Shown here: positions 47,228-54,129 of the stretch, piece by piece
Numbering within the stretch: the stretch's first letter is position 1
Layout: each line of letters starts with the position of its first letter
Notes under the pieces: model-generated
What the model saw: only the letters and a program-made list of their open reading frames with translations
The model's database searches: none
What the model was told of the DNA's origin: nothing
Made by a program: the position numbers and the translations under genes
Origin: Collinsella sp. AF23-4AC
GTDB lineage: Bacteria; Actinomycetota; Coriobacteriia; Coriobacteriales; Coriobacteriaceae
Direction: 5' to 3'
Assembly (NCBI RefSeq): GCF_003462685.1
Contig: NZ_QRVE01000001.1
Coordinates: 225,421 to 289,420 of the forward strand
Length of the DNA: 64,000 nucleotides

Positions 47228-48145
47228 CTAGCCTGTAACGTAATACCAGACCACGTTGTCGCCGTTGGAGAGAACGTAGTTGCTGCAGGCCGTCATGGGC
47301 GTTGAGCCGTTGACGGAGTACATCCAGCCGCTCGTGCCGCCGTACTGTTTCTCGGCCAAACCACCAATCGCGGAGACATACGTGCCGTACGACGAGCCAT
47401 GTGCGTTGACGGAAAGACCCAGCGCGCACAGGGCATCGTAGACGGTAGCGCCTTCGTTAAAGGTAAAGGTGCCACCAGAGGACACAGGATTGCCCACAGC
47501 GCTCGATGTGACCGAAACCGTCACCGTGACGTAGCTGGACTCCTGCGAGCCGCTCTGGCCGCCCGAGGAGACGTTTCCACCATTAGAGGATGAGGCTCCA
47601 TCAGACGACTGGCCACCGCCCGAAGAAGCACCGCCAGACGCATTGGAAGTATCACCGGTTCCCGTATTTTGGGCAGCGGATTTATCGCCAGACTTCTTGC
47701 CGTCCTGGTCCTCGGACTTCTTGTTATCCGAGTTCTTGTCCGATTCCTTGTTTGAAGACTCGGAATCGTCCTTGGACTTGGACTCATCAGAATGCTTGGA
47801 CTCATCTTTTGCGTCATTCGATGACTTGGAATCCTTGGAACTGGCCTCGCCCGAAGCGGCAGACGAGCCAGACGCCTTGGTGTCCTTGGTGACGACGCTC
47901 TCCCCCGACACGGTCTGAATGATCCAGTCGATAGACCAGGCACCGCTTGTGGAAGGATGGACGAAACCCAGCGAGACGACGATCAGAATGGTGCACGCGG
48001 CAGTCAGAACGCCGAGGAGCGCCTTGCGGCGAGGGGCGGACGCCGCCGAAGCGGCGCCCTTTTGCTTTGCATCGTCAAGCTGGATAAACGAGGAATCTGG
48101 TTGCTTGGGGTCAGCGTCCTTGGATTTATTGGACAAAGCCCTCAC
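47228..48145 (-). CDS. Membrane-anchored DUF4430 (transcobalamin-like) protein
   Basis: The 305-residue protein starts with a cytoplasmic tail, then one membrane segment near 42-62 (ALLGVLTAACTILIVVSLGF). A long Ser/Lys/Asp/Glu linker (about 85-210, KDSKSSNDAKDESKHSDES) follows, and last a DUF4430-type domain of about 75 residues (TFTFNEGATVYDALCALGL, SGWMYSVNGSTPMTACSNY). The stop of the gene upstream is joined to this start (TAG then GTG), so it is translationally coupled. A TTG three codons on is an alternative. It would hold the corrinoid-like binding domain near the outer face of the membrane. Confidence 0.75.
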   Translation of the reverse strand: MRALSNKSKDADPKQPDSSFIQLDDAKQKGAASAASAPRRKALLGVLTAACTILIVVSLGFVHPSTSGAWSIDWIIQTVSGESVVTKDTKASGSSAASGEASSKDSKSSNDAKDESKHSDESKSKDDSESSNKESDKNSDNKKSEDQDGKKSGDKSAAQNTGTGDTSNASGGASSGGGQSSDGASSSNGGNVSSGGQSGSQESSYVTVTVSVTSSAVGNPVSSGGTFTFNEGATVYDALCALGLSVNAHGSSYGTYVSAIGGLAEKQYGGTSGWMYSVNGSTPMTACSNYVLSNGDNVVWYYVTG

Positions 48146-51100
48146 CTACCGACGTTTGGTGAACACGAACACGCCGACGATGGCGAGACCGATGACGCCG
48201 GCGGCGATGCCAACGATGGCGAGCGGGTTGGTGCCAGTCTCCTGCTCGGAAGCACTAGAGGACTTCTTAGCAGTGGTCGTGGAAGCAGCACCCGTATCGG
48301 ACTTGGAATCGGACTTCTTGTCGGACTTGCTGTCCTTCTTGTCAGACTTCTTCTCGTCCTTCTTATCGGACTTATCGGAGTCCTTCTTGTCGGACTTGTT
48401 GTCCTTGGTCTCGGTCTTGGTCGACACCGTCGTCTTGGTCACCGGCTTCTGACCCGGGGCGATAGCGCCGCCGGCCTGCTGGCCCTTCGTGCCGGAGCCG
48501 GAACCCGTGCCAGTGCCAGTGCCAGCGCCAGCGCCGGAACCGTTGCCAGCGCCACCGTTGCCACCATTAGTGCCAGAACCGCCATTGCCGCCAGGGTTAA
48601 CGGCATTCTTGGTCCACTTGGCATACAGCGTCAGATCGGCCGTCACCGGCGTACTGAAGTCATACGCCTGCGTGCAAGCCTCATCGGTGAACCAACCGCC
48701 GAAAGTGTAGCCATCGCGCGTCGGATCGGCCGGCTTGACCAGCTTGCCGTCGGCCGTAGCCACAAACTTAGTGTCGCAAGCAGACCCGCCGTTGGAATTA
48801 AAGGCAACCGTCCAAGACTCAACAGCCCCGAGCTTGAACAGCGTGCCCGAATCATTGATGTAGTAGAGGTTGCCAGAAGCATCGGCAATGACCGGAGAGT
48901 CACAGTATTGGTAATGGCCGGCCGCATCATAAATCTGCGTCGCCTCTGCGTCGCCGAGCGTATAGCGATACACGCCACCACCAGCAGAGTAGTTGACGTA
49001 ATCCTTGCTATCCGCGCTGTTCACGGTGAAGTACACGTAGGTCTTGCCGCCCTGAACACTCACCAGCGGAGTAGCAGCAATACCGTTGAGGCCAGCCGGC
49101 AGCGCCTTGCCGTCGGCAGCAGCGACCATCGTGGTCTTGCCCGTCTTCAGGTTATAGAGAACCAGAGCAGAGCCCGTAGCCGTCTGTCCGCCGACAATCA
49201 GATTGTCACCAGACACCGCAGGGGCGCTCAGATTATTCGTAAGGCCCAGATCAACCGTCTTCTGTTCGCTCAGCACGCCCTTCGCCGAAAGCGAAATCAC
49301 ATGGAGCTTTCCGTCGTGCGTCATCTGATAGAAGGTCGAACCATTGGACGGATCGGCAATGCAATCGGCATTTGCGACAGCGCCGAGCTTCATGGTCGAA
49401 ACGACATCGCCCGTCGTCTTATCAATGCACTTAAGCGTGCCCGCGCTCGTAGGAACAATGGTGTACTTATCCGTCAGCGCAGCGCCAGTCCAATAATAGC
49501 CCTCGGAAGGGTCAATGTTCTGCCAAGAGACTTCGCCCGTGGCAATCTTGATACGCTTCAGGGAGCCGTTGCCGTAGGTCGCGTTGTAGTTCTCGTCATA
49601 CGAAATATCGACCGTACCAACATAGACGTACTCGCCGTCCGAAACCACGGTGCAGGAGCTCTGCGTCAAGTCCGTCAAACCAGGCGTCAGCCACTTGCAG
49701 ATCAGCTTGTCCGCAGTAATCGCCTGGACCGCACCGCCGTTGAGCGGAACGATGATAAGGCCGTTGGTATAGATCGGACGAGAGGTATAGCTCACCTTGG
49801 AGGCAAGCGGCGCAGAGGCAACCTTTTTGCCCGTGGACGAATCGATCTTAATGAGCTCGTTCTCGGTCGCGATGTACACAAAACCGTTAGCAATGACAGG
49901 CTCGCTGCAGTTGGCATACTGCTGGCCAGACTCGGCCTTCCAATCGAAGGCCCACTTAAGACCGGCGGCCTGCGCAGGCGTCTTGGCATCCGTTACGGTC
50001 GAACCGTTGCCACTGTTGCCGTAGCCGGCCCACTCGGCATCCCAATCAGGAGTCGTCGCACTCGGGTCCACGACAATCTTGTCGGGATCGGGCATGGCCG
50101 AATCGTCGGTGGTATAGGCAAGCGTAACCTTATCGCCGCTCTTGAGCGTGACCTGGTTGGCGCAGAGAGATGAGGGCTCTCCGTTGATAAACAGACGCCA
50201 ATATTTCTTGGTCGCACCATCCCAGCCATACGGCTTGTGATCGAACGGCGAAGTAATGGAATTCAGGAACCAATATGCACCGCTCTGGGAGGCGTTGTAC
50301 TTAACGCCCTTCGCCTTCAGAACCGTCTCAATAAGGTCCTGGGCCGTAGAGCCTTCGGGCAGGGAAACATTGCTTGCCGAGCCCCAGCGAGTATTGTTGC
50401 CGTTGACATCGGGACCGATAACATCGACGGACCCAAGAACCTGACCGGGGAGGGCATCGGCGTCAGCACCATACATAAAGGTGACGGCGTCACCCTCCTG
50501 GAGCTTGTAGGCACCGGCGCCAACGTCGGCGAACTTTCCATTTACGTAGAAGCGCCAATAGCTATTGGTCGCAGCATCCCATCCATAGGACTTACCATCG
50601 AACGGTGAAGTAATGCCGTTGAGGAACCAGCCCCAAGACGATTCGCTAGCATCGAGAGTAAGGCCGGTCTGCTCAAGGAGATCCTTGGCAGTAGAGCCCG
50701 CCTTGAGACTCGTCTGGCCCGTCGAGGCCCAAACCTGCTGCTTGCCGTCCTTGTCCTTACCGAGGACCTGAACGGAAGCATGGACGGAATCGGACGGCAA
50801 CTGGTCGCCCCAGCCACCGTAGAACCACGTAACGGTATCGCCAGCATGAATGGTGACATTGTCTGCCGTGTAGTCGCTCGACTTGCCGTTGATGAACAGC
50901 TGCCAACAGGTCGAATAATCGAACGGCGTACCCAGCTCAACGCCGTTGTACTTAAGGCTCAGAATGAAGGCGCCCGCAGCAACGGCGTCGATGCCATTCG
51001 CCTCGAGCGCGACCTTCGTAAGGTCAAGTGCGCTCGAGCCGGACGTCACCACATACTGCGCGTTATCGACCCAAGTCTGAGTCTTGCCCTGGGCATCGCG

Positions 51101-52015
51101 ACCAATGACGGTCACATTCGCAGCAAGTTGGTCCTTAACGACAGGGGACGAGCTACCAGCCGTATAGGCAAACTCAATCTTCTGCCCCTGGGTGAGCTTG
51201 ACGCTGCTCGCGCCAACCGAGGAAGACGCACCATCAACAAAGAGCTGCCAGAAGGCACCAGTTGTCGCGTCGTAGGCAAGCGTGCGGCTATCTGTCGGGG
51301 ACGTGATGCTCTTGAGGTAGAGCCCATATGCTGTGTTTGCATCGTAGTCTGCCTTGAAGCCCGTCTTCTCCTGCAGCTTAATGAAGGCATCCGCAGCCGT
51401 CGCGCCCTCGTCGAGCTTGAGCTGCGTAGGTGCCACCCAGGTCTGAGCCTTGCCGTCGGCATCGGTGCCGATAATCGAGAACGAGACCTCGACTTGCTTC
51501 TTGGCGACATCGCCGGTTTCTGTCGGGCTCTCCGTCTGGACGGCAGCCGCGGCGGCGGATCCTGCGTGGCCATCGGATACCGTCGAAGACTGCTCGCTCG
51601 CGGCAGGGTTCTCCCCCGTCGCCGAGCCTTCGTCGCCAGCTGCCGCCCCTGTTGTGGCGGCACTAGCTGCGGGCGTGCTCCCAGAATCTGAAACCTCGGC
51701 GCCGCTCTGCTCGGCGGCACCGCCCGCAAGCGCTGCACCCTCGTCCGGCGTCGCAGCCTGAGCCACAGCCTCGGCAATGCCCTCGGCGCCCTCGGCCCAC
51801 AGCTGAGCCGGCGTGGTGCCAAAGGCCATCGCGAAGGCCAGGAATGCCACCAGGCCGCGCTTAGCTACACCGCGTGCAATCGCGCCACGGCGATGCAACG
51901 AGGCGCGCTCGCGCTCGTCCTCAAACATATCCATTTGTCCCCCATTGTCTGTACTTGGAGCGTTACCTTGAGGCTGCCCCACGTCATCGCGCATGTTGCG
52001 CTCGAGTTCCCCCAT
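48146..52015 (-). CDS. Giant surface protein: four DUF4430 repeats, PQQ-like propeller, InlB-like repeat
   Basis: The 1,289-residue protein has an exported N-terminus (hydrophobic stretch near 53-67, AKRGLVAFLAFAMAFGTTP). A Ser/Ala linker leads to four DUF4430-like domains (about 176-287, 299-400, 413-517 and 527-636). Each ends in a block like YWRFYVNGKFADVGAGAYKL. A PQQ-type propeller follows (about 660-1060), then an InlB B-type repeat (DGYTFGGWFTDEACTQAYDF). A Lys/Asp/Ser tail (KDSDKSDKKDEKK) leads to one C-terminal membrane anchor, ending VFVFTKRR. I start at M22 of the longest frame (52015), because GGAGGG lies upstream and the earlier TTG codon abuts the riboswitch. DUF4430 is the C-terminal fold of human intrinsic factor and transcobalamin. 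A corrinoid-binding role is inferred. Confidence 0.8.
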   Translation of the reverse strand: MGELERNMRDDVGQPQGNAPSTDNGGQMDMFEDERERASLHRRGAIARGVAKRGLVAFLAFAMAFGTTPAQLWAEGAEGIAEAVAQAATPDEGAALAGGAAEQSGAEVSDSGSTPAASAATTGAAAGDEGSATGENPAASEQSSTVSDGHAGSAAAAAVQTESPTETGDVAKKQVEVSFSIIGTDADGKAQTWVAPTQLKLDEGATAADAFIKLQEKTGFKADYDANTAYGLYLKSITSPTDSRTLAYDATTGAFWQLFVDGASSSVGASSVKLTQGQKIEFAYTAGSSSPVVKDQLAANVTVIGRDAQGKTQTWVDNAQYVVTSGSSALDLTKVALEANGIDAVAAGAFILSLKYNGVELGTPFDYSTCWQLFINGKSSDYTADNVTIHAGDTVTWFYGGWGDQLPSDSVHASVQVLGKDKDGKQQVWASTGQTSLKAGSTAKDLLEQTGLTLDASESSWGWFLNGITSPFDGKSYGWDAATNSYWRFYVNGKFADVGAGAYKLQEGDAVTFMYGADADALPGQVLGSVDVIGPDVNGNNTRWGSASNVSLPEGSTAQDLIETVLKAKGVKYNASQSGAYWFLNSITSPFDHKPYGWDGATKKYWRLFINGEPSSLCANQVTLKSGDKVTLAYTTDDSAMPDPDKIVVDPSATTPDWDAEWAGYGNSGNGSTVTDAKTPAQAAGLKWAFDWKAESGQQYANCSEPVIANGFVYIATENELIKIDSSTGKKVASAPLASKVSYTSRPIYTNGLIIVPLNGGAVQAITADKLICKWLTPGLTDLTQSSCTVVSDGEYVYVGTVDISYDENYNATYGNGSLKRIKIATGEVSWQNIDPSEGYYWTGAALTDKYTIVPTSAGTLKCIDKTTGDVVSTMKLGAVANADCIADPSNGSTFYQMTHDGKLHVISLSAKGVLSEQKTVDLGLTNNLSAPAVSGDNLIVGGQTATGSALVLYNLKTGKTTMVAAADGKALPAGLNGIAATPLVSVQGGKTYVYFTVNSADSKDYVNYSAGGGVYRYTLGDAEATQIYDAAGHYQYCDSPVIADASGNLYYINDSGTLFKLGAVESWTVAFNSNGGSACDTKFVATADGKLVKPADPTRDGYTFGGWFTDEACTQAYDFSTPVTADLTLYAKWTKNAVNPGGNGGSGTNGGNGGAGNGSGAGAGTGTGTGSGSGTKGQQAGGAIAPGQKPVTKTTVSTKTETKDNKSDKKDSDKSDKKDEKKSDKKDSKSDKKSDSKSDTGAASTTTAKKSSSASEQETGTNPLAIVGIAAGVIGLAIVGVFVFTKRR

Positions 52016-52082
52016 CGGGGTCCCCCTTCCCTCCAGAGCCCTATGCACACCGGCGGCATACGCCGCAGCCGCATACAAGATG

Positions 52083-52245
52083 GGAGGCGATCCGACTTAA
52101 CCTTAACGGCTCAGGCGCGCCGTCCGATCTGCGACACGAACATCCCGAGCCAAGAGGAATTACGGTTACTGGTACAGCCGGGGACTTGCACCCCAATTCT
52201 CCCAAACGCGCAGGAAAACCGCGCATTCGTGCGTCTCCGCACCAC
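52083..52245 (-). promoter_or_regulatory. Cobalamin (B12) riboswitch
   Basis: On the minus strand the leader of the 48146-52015 gene reads GGGAGAATTGGGGTGCAAG then TCCCCGGCTGTACCAGTAACC, the conserved core of cobalamin riboswitches. A GGCTC...GAGCC stem follows, and then AAGTCGGATCGCC, the B12-box (52087-52099). The start codon lies about 70 bases further on, with GGAGGGAAGGGGGACCCC before it. Control of translation by sequestering that RBS is inferred. The riboswitch class is strongly supported by sequence. Confidence 0.85.
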
Positions 52246-52365
52246 CATCTAGGCCATCGATTATTACCGTCAGTATGGTATCACGCAAAAGGGCCTCGCA
52301 CGCAGGCGAAGCCCAAGGTAAAAGCTATTGTTTGCGATAGGAAAATGCGGTGACGGTCGCGGCCT

Positions 52366-54129
52366 CTAGTGCTTGCCGCCGTGACTGTTGAGCCAGATAT
52401 TGCGGCCCAGCATAAGCGCCAGCACCAGTGCGCTGACGTAGCCCATAAAGCCAATGACCGGGATACCAAACACAACCGGCTCGATGCGCGCGTAGTACAC
52501 CACCGACGAACCGATAAACAGGCCAGCAATCACAATTGCCATCGACATGCGGTCGATAATTCCGCCCAGCTGTCGCAGCGCCTTATCGCTGCTCATGATC
52601 TGCGTGTTCACCTTAAGCTGGCCGCGCGTGAGCATACGCGAAGCCAAGCCCAGATACTCGGCCGCCTCGAGTGAGCCCTTCGCCGCGCGATAACTGCTCG
52701 CGGCAAGATCGCGTCCCATATCACGCACGCGCGCATAAGTGCTTTTTTCGTTTTTGATGTGCGTCTGGATGATCTGGATCATGTTGACGTTGGGCATATA
52801 CTCAGTCAGCAGGCCCTCGAGCGTCACCATGCCGCGGGCGAACATCGTTACCACGCTCGGCAGCTCAACGTCGTTTTTGCGCGCCAGGTTTAACAGCGAG
52901 GTCAAAAACTCGCCGATATCCAGATCCTTCAGGTCAAGGCCTGCAAAGTCAGCCACGATAAAGTCCAAATCGGACAAAAAGGCCGAATGATCGAGCTCAG
53001 CCGAGTCGCCACGCGTCACGGCGAAGCGCATGAGCGAATCCTTGAGCTTGGGCACGTCGCCCTCGGCCACGGCGAAAATCATGTCCTTAACGATACCGCG
53101 ATCGTGACTCGACATGCGTCCGACCATGCCCAAGTCGATAAAGTAAACGATGCCGTCCTTGAGAATAATGTTTCCCGCATGCGGGTCGGCATGGAAAAAG
53201 CCGTCATCGAGCACCTGCGTCGAGTAGTCCTCGACGATTGCGGCACCGATCTTTTCCAAGTCATAGCCCTCGGCCACCAAGCGTTCAGGATCGGCGATCG
53301 AAATGCCGTCGACGTAGTCCATAACCACCACGTGCTCGGTGCACAGGTCCAGATAGGATTTAGGGCACGTCACGCCATGAACGCTCTTATGGAACTCGTA
53401 GAAGTCGTTGAGGTTTTTGGCCTCGGCCAAAAAGTTGGTCTCCTCGCGAAACGAGGTCCACAACTCCTCGACTACGCCGTGCAGGTCAACGAATTGATCG
53501 GTGTTGACGAACTTGGAAACGATACGCACCACCGAGCGGATGATATCGATGTCCTGTGCCATAACCTGCTGCGCACCGGGGCGCTGCACCTTGACGGCCA
53601 CGTCCTCGCCCGTCACCAGACGAGCGCGGTGCACCTGCGCGAGCGATGCGCTACCAAGCGGATTGGGGTCGATCGCATCGAACATCTCCCCCAGGCGCAG
53701 GCCGTATTCTTCTTCCAGACAACTGAGTACGACCTCGTACGGCACCGGCTCCACGTCGGACCGCAGACGACGCAGCTCGTCGCAAAAGCGTTGCGGCAGA
53801 ATCTCGGACCGGTTGGCCAGAATCTGCCCCATCTTGACGAACATGGGGCCGAGTTCCTCGAGCAGGCGGCGCAAACGAACCGGCGTGAGGTTGTCCCACA
53901 CGCGGTACTTTTTGACCAGGCGAACAATCTGCCCGATGCGTTCGCGACGACCCGCCGGCGTGAGCTGGTATTCCTCGTCCGGCGCCATCGCGTCGGGCTC
54001 CTCTGGCACCATATCGACAGCGCGCGGCTTCTTGCGAGCGCCCGAGACGGCGGCATCGACCTCATCGACAACCGCCGCCTCGTCACCCAAGGGATCTAGA
54101 TTGTTGTAATCGGTGGTGGAATCTGCCAT
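52366..54129 (-). CDS. UbiB/ABC1-family atypical kinase
   Basis: The 587-residue protein has the family motif FVKMGQILANRSE, the nucleotide motif GSASLAQVHRA, the Lys in VAVKVQRPG and the catalytic block FFHADPHAGNI with DLGMVG. Two C-terminal membrane segments (AIVIAGLFIGSSVVYYA, IGFMGYVSALVLALML) anchor it. Such kinases or ATPases act in quinone or lipid biology. It follows the phasin-like gene by 8 bases, so the two share an operon. No ubiquinone pathway is apparent, so the target is unknown. Confidence 0.9.
   Translation of the reverse strand: MADSTTDYNNLDPLGDEAAVVDEVDAAVSGARKKPRAVDMVPEEPDAMAPDEEYQLTPAGRRERIGQIVRLVKKYRVWDNLTPVRLRRLLEELGPMFVKMGQILANRSEILPQRFCDELRRLRSDVEPVPYEVVLSCLEEEYGLRLGEMFDAIDPNPLGSASLAQVHRARLVTGEDVAVKVQRPGAQQVMAQDIDIIRSVVRIVSKFVNTDQFVDLHGVVEELWTSFREETNFLAEAKNLNDFYEFHKSVHGVTCPKSYLDLCTEHVVVMDYVDGISIADPERLVAEGYDLEKIGAAIVEDYSTQVLDDGFFHADPHAGNIILKDGIVYFIDLGMVGRMSSHDRGIVKDMIFAVAEGDVPKLKDSLMRFAVTRGDSAELDHSAFLSDLDFIVADFAGLDLKDLDIGEFLTSLLNLARKNDVELPSVVTMFARGMVTLEGLLTEYMPNVNMIQIIQTHIKNEKSTYARVRDMGRDLAASSYRAAKGSLEAAEYLGLASRMLTRGQLKVNTQIMSSDKALRQLGGIIDRMSMAIVIAGLFIGSSVVYYARIEPVVFGIPVIGFMGYVSALVLALMLGRNIWLNSHGGKH

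Follow-up and report, generated by a model that had tools for sequence, protein, structure and literature searches.

How two surface proteins with a domain of unknown function come to stand behind what looks like a cobalamin riboswitch, and what those proteins might bind, is the question raised by a 64,000-nucleotide stretch of the Collinsella sp. AF23-4AC genome (assembly GCF_003462685.1, contig NZ_QRVE01000001.1, positions 225,421 to 289,420; this whole stretch is called the window here). On its reverse strand (-), a structured leader RNA is followed by the genes for a large and a small protein, both of which carry DUF4430. The operon is probably the surface part of a system that scavenges corrinoids, the vitamin B12 family, a reading held with good confidence. 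It draws on the structure of the RNA, its position upstream of DUF4430 genes, the fold of the domain and the link in relatives between DUF4430 and a CbrT-like energy-coupling factor (ECF) transporter, all of which were computed.

The leader RNA

The leader and its expression platform are made up of the following elements (window coordinates).

52078..52250 (-): cobalamin-type riboswitch aptamer, P1 to P1' (RF01689, 28.2 bits, below the cut-off; covariation over 31 leaders)
52250-52245 (-): 5' strand of P1, AGATGG
52083-52078 (-): 3' strand of P1, CCATCT
52169..52172 (-): L5 loop CCAG, with the proposed kissing partner CTGG at 52036-52033 (from the alignment)
52013..52036 (-): expression platform, CTGG overlapping the Shine-Dalgarno sequence GGAGGGAAGGGGG, then ATG (52015-52013); order kept in relatives

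A permissive scan of positions 51900-52400 placed the AdoCbl-II model of Rfam (RF01689) at 52202-52114 (-), with 28.2 bits and an E-value of 1.7e-4; the cut-off of the model is 36.5 bits. The match lies inside 52083-52245, where the original prediction, made from the DNA letters, had placed the riboswitch and proposed running a cobalamin covariance model, and this span agrees with the P1-to-P1' span of 52250-52078. The core helices and the L5 sequence are like those of AdoCbl-II, whereas the window leader has a 37-base insert where the model has 4 bases and its score stays under the curated cut-off. The match in the window is weak when taken alone, so the case for a riboswitch rests on the relatives.

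The genus sample comprised 43 genomes, with RF01689 matches accepted at E ≤ 1. A single match was found in each of 41 genomes, the weakest in G022 (E 0.95), and four of them pass the cut-off at 38.7-41.4 bits. DUF4430 lies downstream on the same strand in 40 of the 41 (41 of 42 leaders when the window is counted), 123-4338 bases past the leader as cut; in G031 no DUF4430 was found in the region past the match, which stops at the contig end. Two genomes also have a canonical RF00174 match at a second locus (G034:C2:31112-31238, 48.2 bits; G031:C13:46020-46146, 46.8 bits).

For the leader alignment, 11 near-duplicates were dropped and 31 of the 42 leaders retained. RNAalifold predicted 35 pairs in these, 18 of them with double changes. 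A structure drawn by hand, partly from the tested alignment and hence favoured by it, has 93.7% of cells paired, compared with 39.3-47.7% when it is slid by 1-3 columns; both sides have changed in 23 of its 37 pairs, its covariation is 0.348 versus 0.178 in shuffles, and 0 of 500 shuffles matched the observed value in each of five measures. The pairs of P1, the 5' hairpins and P6 vary on both sides. The conserved core is accompanied by covarying helices, with several both-side-changed pairs in helices 1, 2, 3, 7 and 8 and one each in P3 and P4.

A different structured RNA that resembles a cobalamin riboswitch by chance would explain why the window match falls under the Rfam cut-off. Such a coincidence is very improbable, since RF01689 precedes DUF4430 in 40 of the 41 matching genomes, four times over the cut-off, and related operons of the class have cobalamin riboswitches with clear scores, the highest 108.5 bits. 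The leader is almost certainly of the cobalamin riboswitch type, and the earlier proposal that such a riboswitch heads the operon holds, the sub-cut-off match being backed by the genus-wide matches and the covarying structure.

The downstream end of the leader suggests how it may act. A pattern search recovered the order CTGG, a purine-rich stretch directly after it, then ATG or GTG from 41 of 41 relatives, and reading the sequence shows it in the window as well. The CCAG/CTGG pairing, the candidate for an L5-L13 kissing loop, holds in 98.4% of cells and in 30-31 of 31 aligned rows, but it is invariant and so lacks covariation support. This layout fits a kissing interaction that would hide the ribosome-binding site when the ligand is bound. 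The most likely start codon of the large protein is ATG 52015, which follows the Shine-Dalgarno sequence, and not TTG 52078.

The two surface proteins and the DUF4430 fold

The coding part of the operon contains the following features (HMM, hidden Markov model; pLDDT, predicted local distance difference test).

48146..52015 (-): large surface protein, 1289 amino acids (Pfam and sequence; signal and anchor judged visually)
51161..51496 (-): DUF4430 copy 1 of the large protein (HMM match)
50819..51127 (-): DUF4430 copy 2 of the large protein (HMM match)
50471..50785 (-): DUF4430 copy 3 of the large protein (HMM match; Pfam best stretch)
50108..50431 (-): DUF4430 copy 4 of the large protein (HMM match)
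48821..49978 (-): PQQ-like beta-propeller of the large protein
48617..48811 (-): Flg_new / List_Bact_rpt repeat of the large protein (PF09479, E 1.5e-21)
47228..48145 (-): small surface protein, 305 amino acids (Pfam and sequence; anchor and stalk judged visually)
47234..47530 (-): DUF4430 of the small protein, transcobalamin beta-domain fold (pLDDT 94.8; PDB matches)

The two genes abut, with the stop codon of the large protein at 48148-48146 and the GTG of the small protein at 48145. Pfam PF14478 (DUF4430) matches the large protein four times (E 1.4e-44) and the 305-residue protein once (E 8e-19), as the original prediction had it for both. From its N-terminus on, the large protein shows a signal-like segment, the four DUF4430 domains, the PQQ-like propeller, the Flg_new repeat and a hydrophobic C-terminus with TKRR (the ends by eye). 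The small protein has a hydrophobic segment at about residues 41-62, a long Ser/Lys/Asp-rich stalk and DUF4430 at its extreme C-terminus (by eye). The signal-like and hydrophobic or anchor segments seen in the two sequences bear out the surface location proposed for both. Lipoprotein forms of the small protein occur among relatives, judging by eye from LGGC in L051 and similar lipoboxes in L127 and L128.

The modelled DUF4430 of the small protein (pLDDT 94.8) has structure matches in the PDB that identify the transcobalamin beta-domain fold. The beta-hairpin insert after the helix, which together with that fold marks transcobalamin-like SLBB domains, is present. A GW and an NG in strand 75-83 stand out by their conservation. 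A phmmer search of the PDB with the single small protein gave nothing useful, and a profile was needed. Transcobalamin, intrinsic factor and haptocorrin differ from the window proteins in that no alpha/alpha-toroid half is detected in the latter, no toroid family being among the Pfam matches of the two, and four tandem beta domains occur instead. The isolated beta domain of human transcobalamin (TC) binds cyanocobalamin and cobinamide in crystals (PMC5599065). In one class operon behind RF01482 (L141, 1278-8082), a squalene-cyclase-type match occurs together with DUF4430, so that both fold types of animal transcobalamin are represented.

NCBIfam searches of both proteins found only the List_Bact repeat informative and no other family. 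The Pfam match to the propeller is weak; the propeller is probably eight-bladed. BtuG of Bacteroides is itself a beta-propeller, and a BtuG-like B12-binding role for the window's propeller was considered and found unsupported, with YxaL and BamB closest and BtuG absent among the best 50 matches listed. The sequence search with the small protein gave 7943 relatives, and the 120 matches listed are all more than 90% identical. In some genomes of the genus (L041, L043, L044, L054) the large-protein frame is 2214-2458 amino acids long; the one scanned (L041, 4087-11418, 2443 amino acids) gains a bacterial Ig-like domain and retains three DUF4430 domains.

Upstream of the operon, window positions 52366-54129 (-) encode an ABC1/UbiB-like kinase (PF03109), the C. 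aerofaciens copy of which is publicly annotated as RfaY, probably a misnomer. The window had also been said to lack classical btu genes. None is listed in the annotation of the C. aerofaciens region matched to the window by offset, with synteny confirmed near the operon.

A probable ECF transporter partner in the genus

Five genomes of the genus (G041, G020, G030, G040, G014) have the riboswitch, a short DUF4430 gene and then an ECF transporter, inside which the contig of G030 ends. The S component beside DUF4430 in these relatives matches chain A of 6fnp (E 1.1e-8), and so does the S component that stands at a separate locus in G001 (E 3.9e-6), the genome nearest to the source of the window with 40% of sampled words in common. 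Together with an S component of Latilactobacillus curvatus (E 3.3e-14), three were searched, and for each this chain was the sole PDB match below E 0.01. 6FNP is ECF-CbrT, described as a B12 transporter in the portion of PMC5997447 available. The ATPase half of the ECF module matches the cobalt-transport CbiO model TIGR01166.

The S component is present in 42 of the 43 genomes. It is missing only from G039. This genome is also the only one in the genus that lacks DUF4430; an RF01689 match is absent from it and from G029 alone. G039 retains a B12-binding-domain protein, CbiD and two FecCD genes; its CbiD and FecCD permeases are perhaps another corrinoid route. A demand for the vitamin is indicated by a frame of 819-943 amino acids with a B12-binding domain in 11 of 12 genus genomes tested, and all 26 genomes without the biosynthesis gene CbiD carry DUF4430. 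The joint presence and absence in the genus, the CbrT-like ECF genes beside DUF4430 in relatives and the transcobalamin beta-domain fold together support the corrinoid-capture reading that the original prediction had put forward.

Beside the window operon itself there is no locus that combines a CbrT-like S component, EcfT and EcfA. In G001 (L083, 7945-12617; by coordinates also in G003 and G012), about 5.7 kb lie between the ECF ATPase gene and the S component gene, and this spacer holds transporter-like and amidohydrolase-like frames (by eye).

Distribution in the class and in Bacillota

Among 149 genomes of the class, DUF4430 occurs in 69 and an RF00174 match (E ≤ 0.01) in 102. Outside the genus there are 51 genomes with DUF4430, 32 of which have an RF00174 match at the same threshold; in 29 of these 32 it lies within 10 kb upstream of the DUF4430 gene on the same strand, and 12 of the 29 are over the Rfam cut-off. 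Twenty class regions were fetched, 14 chosen with a riboswitch match and 6 without. DUF4430, EcfT, EcfAA' and S occur together in 18 of them, the other two (L125, L138) having no ECF genes in the stretch read. A riboswitch over the cut-off was found in 11 regions (8 RF00174, 1 RF01482, 2 RF01689), with scores reaching 108.5 bits. Since different riboswitch models precede the same kind of operon, riboswitches appear to have been recruited repeatedly before such operons.

These regions bear on whether DUF4430 is structural or adhesive, the operon encoding an adhesin or cell-wall protein that came under B12 control by chance. The large protein with its propeller and Flg_new repeat would suit such a role, as would the growth of its L041 counterpart to 2443 amino acids with an Ig-like domain. 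The constant element of the 20 class regions is nevertheless the small DUF4430 protein, which ECF genes adjoin in 18, and three Rfam cobalamin models precede such operons; an adhesin is accordingly an unlikely explanation, and corrinoid scavenging is preferred.

The same partners recur in Bacillota. The gene order in L. curvatus is LPXTG protein, DUF4430, EcfT, AA' and S, a set kept by three relatives from one genome scan. In one of these three, an RF00174 match of 44.5 bits, over the cut-off, precedes the LPXTG gene by about 2.5 kb. On a plasmid of Lentilactobacillus kefiri, a 71.9-bit riboswitch precedes a surface protein, lectin and DUF4430 set, with the ECF genes divergent. A plasmid of Enterococcus faecalis (L147, 1301-6531, NZ_CP117513) encodes a B12-dependent ribonucleotide reductase, a corrinoid adenosyltransferase, a cobalamin ECF S component and DUF4430, the last separated from the other B12 genes by an IS30 element. 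The L. plantarum plasmid pMF1298-5 (L145, 1156-11459) has cobS, two ECF S components, EcfT, AA', lectin and DUF4430, a cluster suggesting that corrinoid salvage has spread horizontally among lactobacilli.

The ligands may be other or broader than cobalamin (cobinamide, other incomplete corrinoids or cobalt), cobalamin then being merely the riboswitch's read-out of success. Cobinamide is accepted by human TC-beta (PMC5599065) and, in the portion of PMC5997447 available, by CbrT; cobS, a late cobamide-assembly gene, lies near ECF and DUF4430 on pMF1298-5; CbiD is kept by 17 of the 43 genus genomes; the bacterial structure 3u7z carries the label putative metal binding; and the ATPase half matches the CbiO model. 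Against this, the Enterococcus cluster pairs DUF4430 with B12-using enzymes and the S components tested are CbrT-like, which leaves a broader ligand range as a real but clearly less probable alternative to cobalamin itself.

Evidence on the other side

Several results weigh against a riboswitch-controlled corrinoid system. The Rfam scan of the whole window found no family at its curated gathering score, and the leader, at 28.2 versus 36.5 bits, lies below the cut-off that is the score criterion for clan CL00101; the negative of the window scan is overturned because of the matches in relatives. Of those matches, 37 of 41 are themselves under the cut-off, and G029 has DUF4430 and the S component with no RF01689 match. 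The proposed kissing pairs are invariant. By sequence profile, DUF4430 matches the animal carriers weakly (E 0.017 and 0.24). None of the five separate ECF loci of the genus that were fetched (L083, L084, L085, L087, L089) has a cobalamin riboswitch, so the transporter there seems not to be co-regulated with the operon. In the class, 4 of the 20 regions (L130, L131, L132, L136) have sub-cut-off riboswitch matches only and 5 have none at E ≤ 0.5, and three of four Lactobacillales plasmid regions (L143, L145, L147) also lack one. CbiD is present in 17 of the 43 genus genomes, G001 included, so some members of the genus may make corrinoid.

Proposed mechanism

The proposed mechanism takes cobalamin as the likely ligand of both the RNA and the proteins. 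When cobalamin is low in the cell, the leader would leave the ribosome-binding site free and the two surface proteins would be made; when cobalamin is bound, L5 would pair with the CTGG, which runs into the Shine-Dalgarno sequence, in a kissing interaction that shuts off translation. Outside the cell, the DUF4430 domains, with their transcobalamin beta-domain fold, would hold the corrinoid, the tandem four-domain protein serving as an outer reservoir. The small stalked protein would pass the corrinoid to a CbrT-type ECF transporter, encoded elsewhere in the nearest genomes: its beta domain, tethered by a stalk or a lipid anchor, would bind the corrinoid and load the CbrT-type S component, and would do so with no toroid half to close over the ligand as in the animal proteins. 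The propeller probably acts as a scaffold or in polymer binding. That an ECF vitamin transporter works here with a dedicated extracellular, membrane-tethered binding protein is given an even chance. We know of no extracellular receptor for ECF transporters.

Relation to known systems and significance

A scavenging system of this kind is known as a 2007 prediction. In the part of their paper available (PMC1796856), Burroughs et al. predicted B12 scavenging as the role of transcobalamin-like SLBB proteins in Gram-positives, and described CbiO/CbiQ-like transporter genes, a fusion with a propeller and operons that pair two paralogues. The window proteins are alike in their secreted or surface beta-grasp domains, propeller fusion, operon paralogues, transporter genes in relatives and predicted role. 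The main text of that paper does not use the word riboswitch, and the portion available names no S component (PMC1796856); the present work adds the riboswitch, the CbrT identity, the class counts and the modelled fold, the first three of which are new within the open-licence literature searched. Among the papers listed there for DUF4430, none deals with B12 binding by the bacterial proteins, and a passage in PMC4350170 concerns fish proteins.

ECF-CbrT of Lactobacillus delbrueckii is matched through the S component in relatives and at the separate locus of the nearest genome. In the available portion of its description, the S component itself binds the substrate and no extracellular receptor is described (PMC5997447), whereas here DUF4430 genes adjoin ECF genes. 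The BtuG/BtuB system of Bacteroides (PMC10404256) likewise captures B12 at the surface by a protein adjoining the transporter. A beta-propeller is found in both systems, but that of the window is PQQ-like and BtuG/BtuB is an outer-membrane system. To our knowledge, B12 capture at the surface of Gram-positive gut bacteria is poorly known compared with that in Bacteroides.

Through the riboswitch and the CbrT partner, a specific and testable ligand can be proposed for these DUF4430 proteins of 'unknown function'. Both findings also bear on the doubt whether B12 is the main ligand, raised by a 2007 reviewer who, in the part of PMC1796856 available, wanted it not to be presented as the sole one. 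If the proposal is true, ECF transporters would gain an extracellular receptor, and the competition of gut Coriobacteriia for corrinoids would have an explanation.

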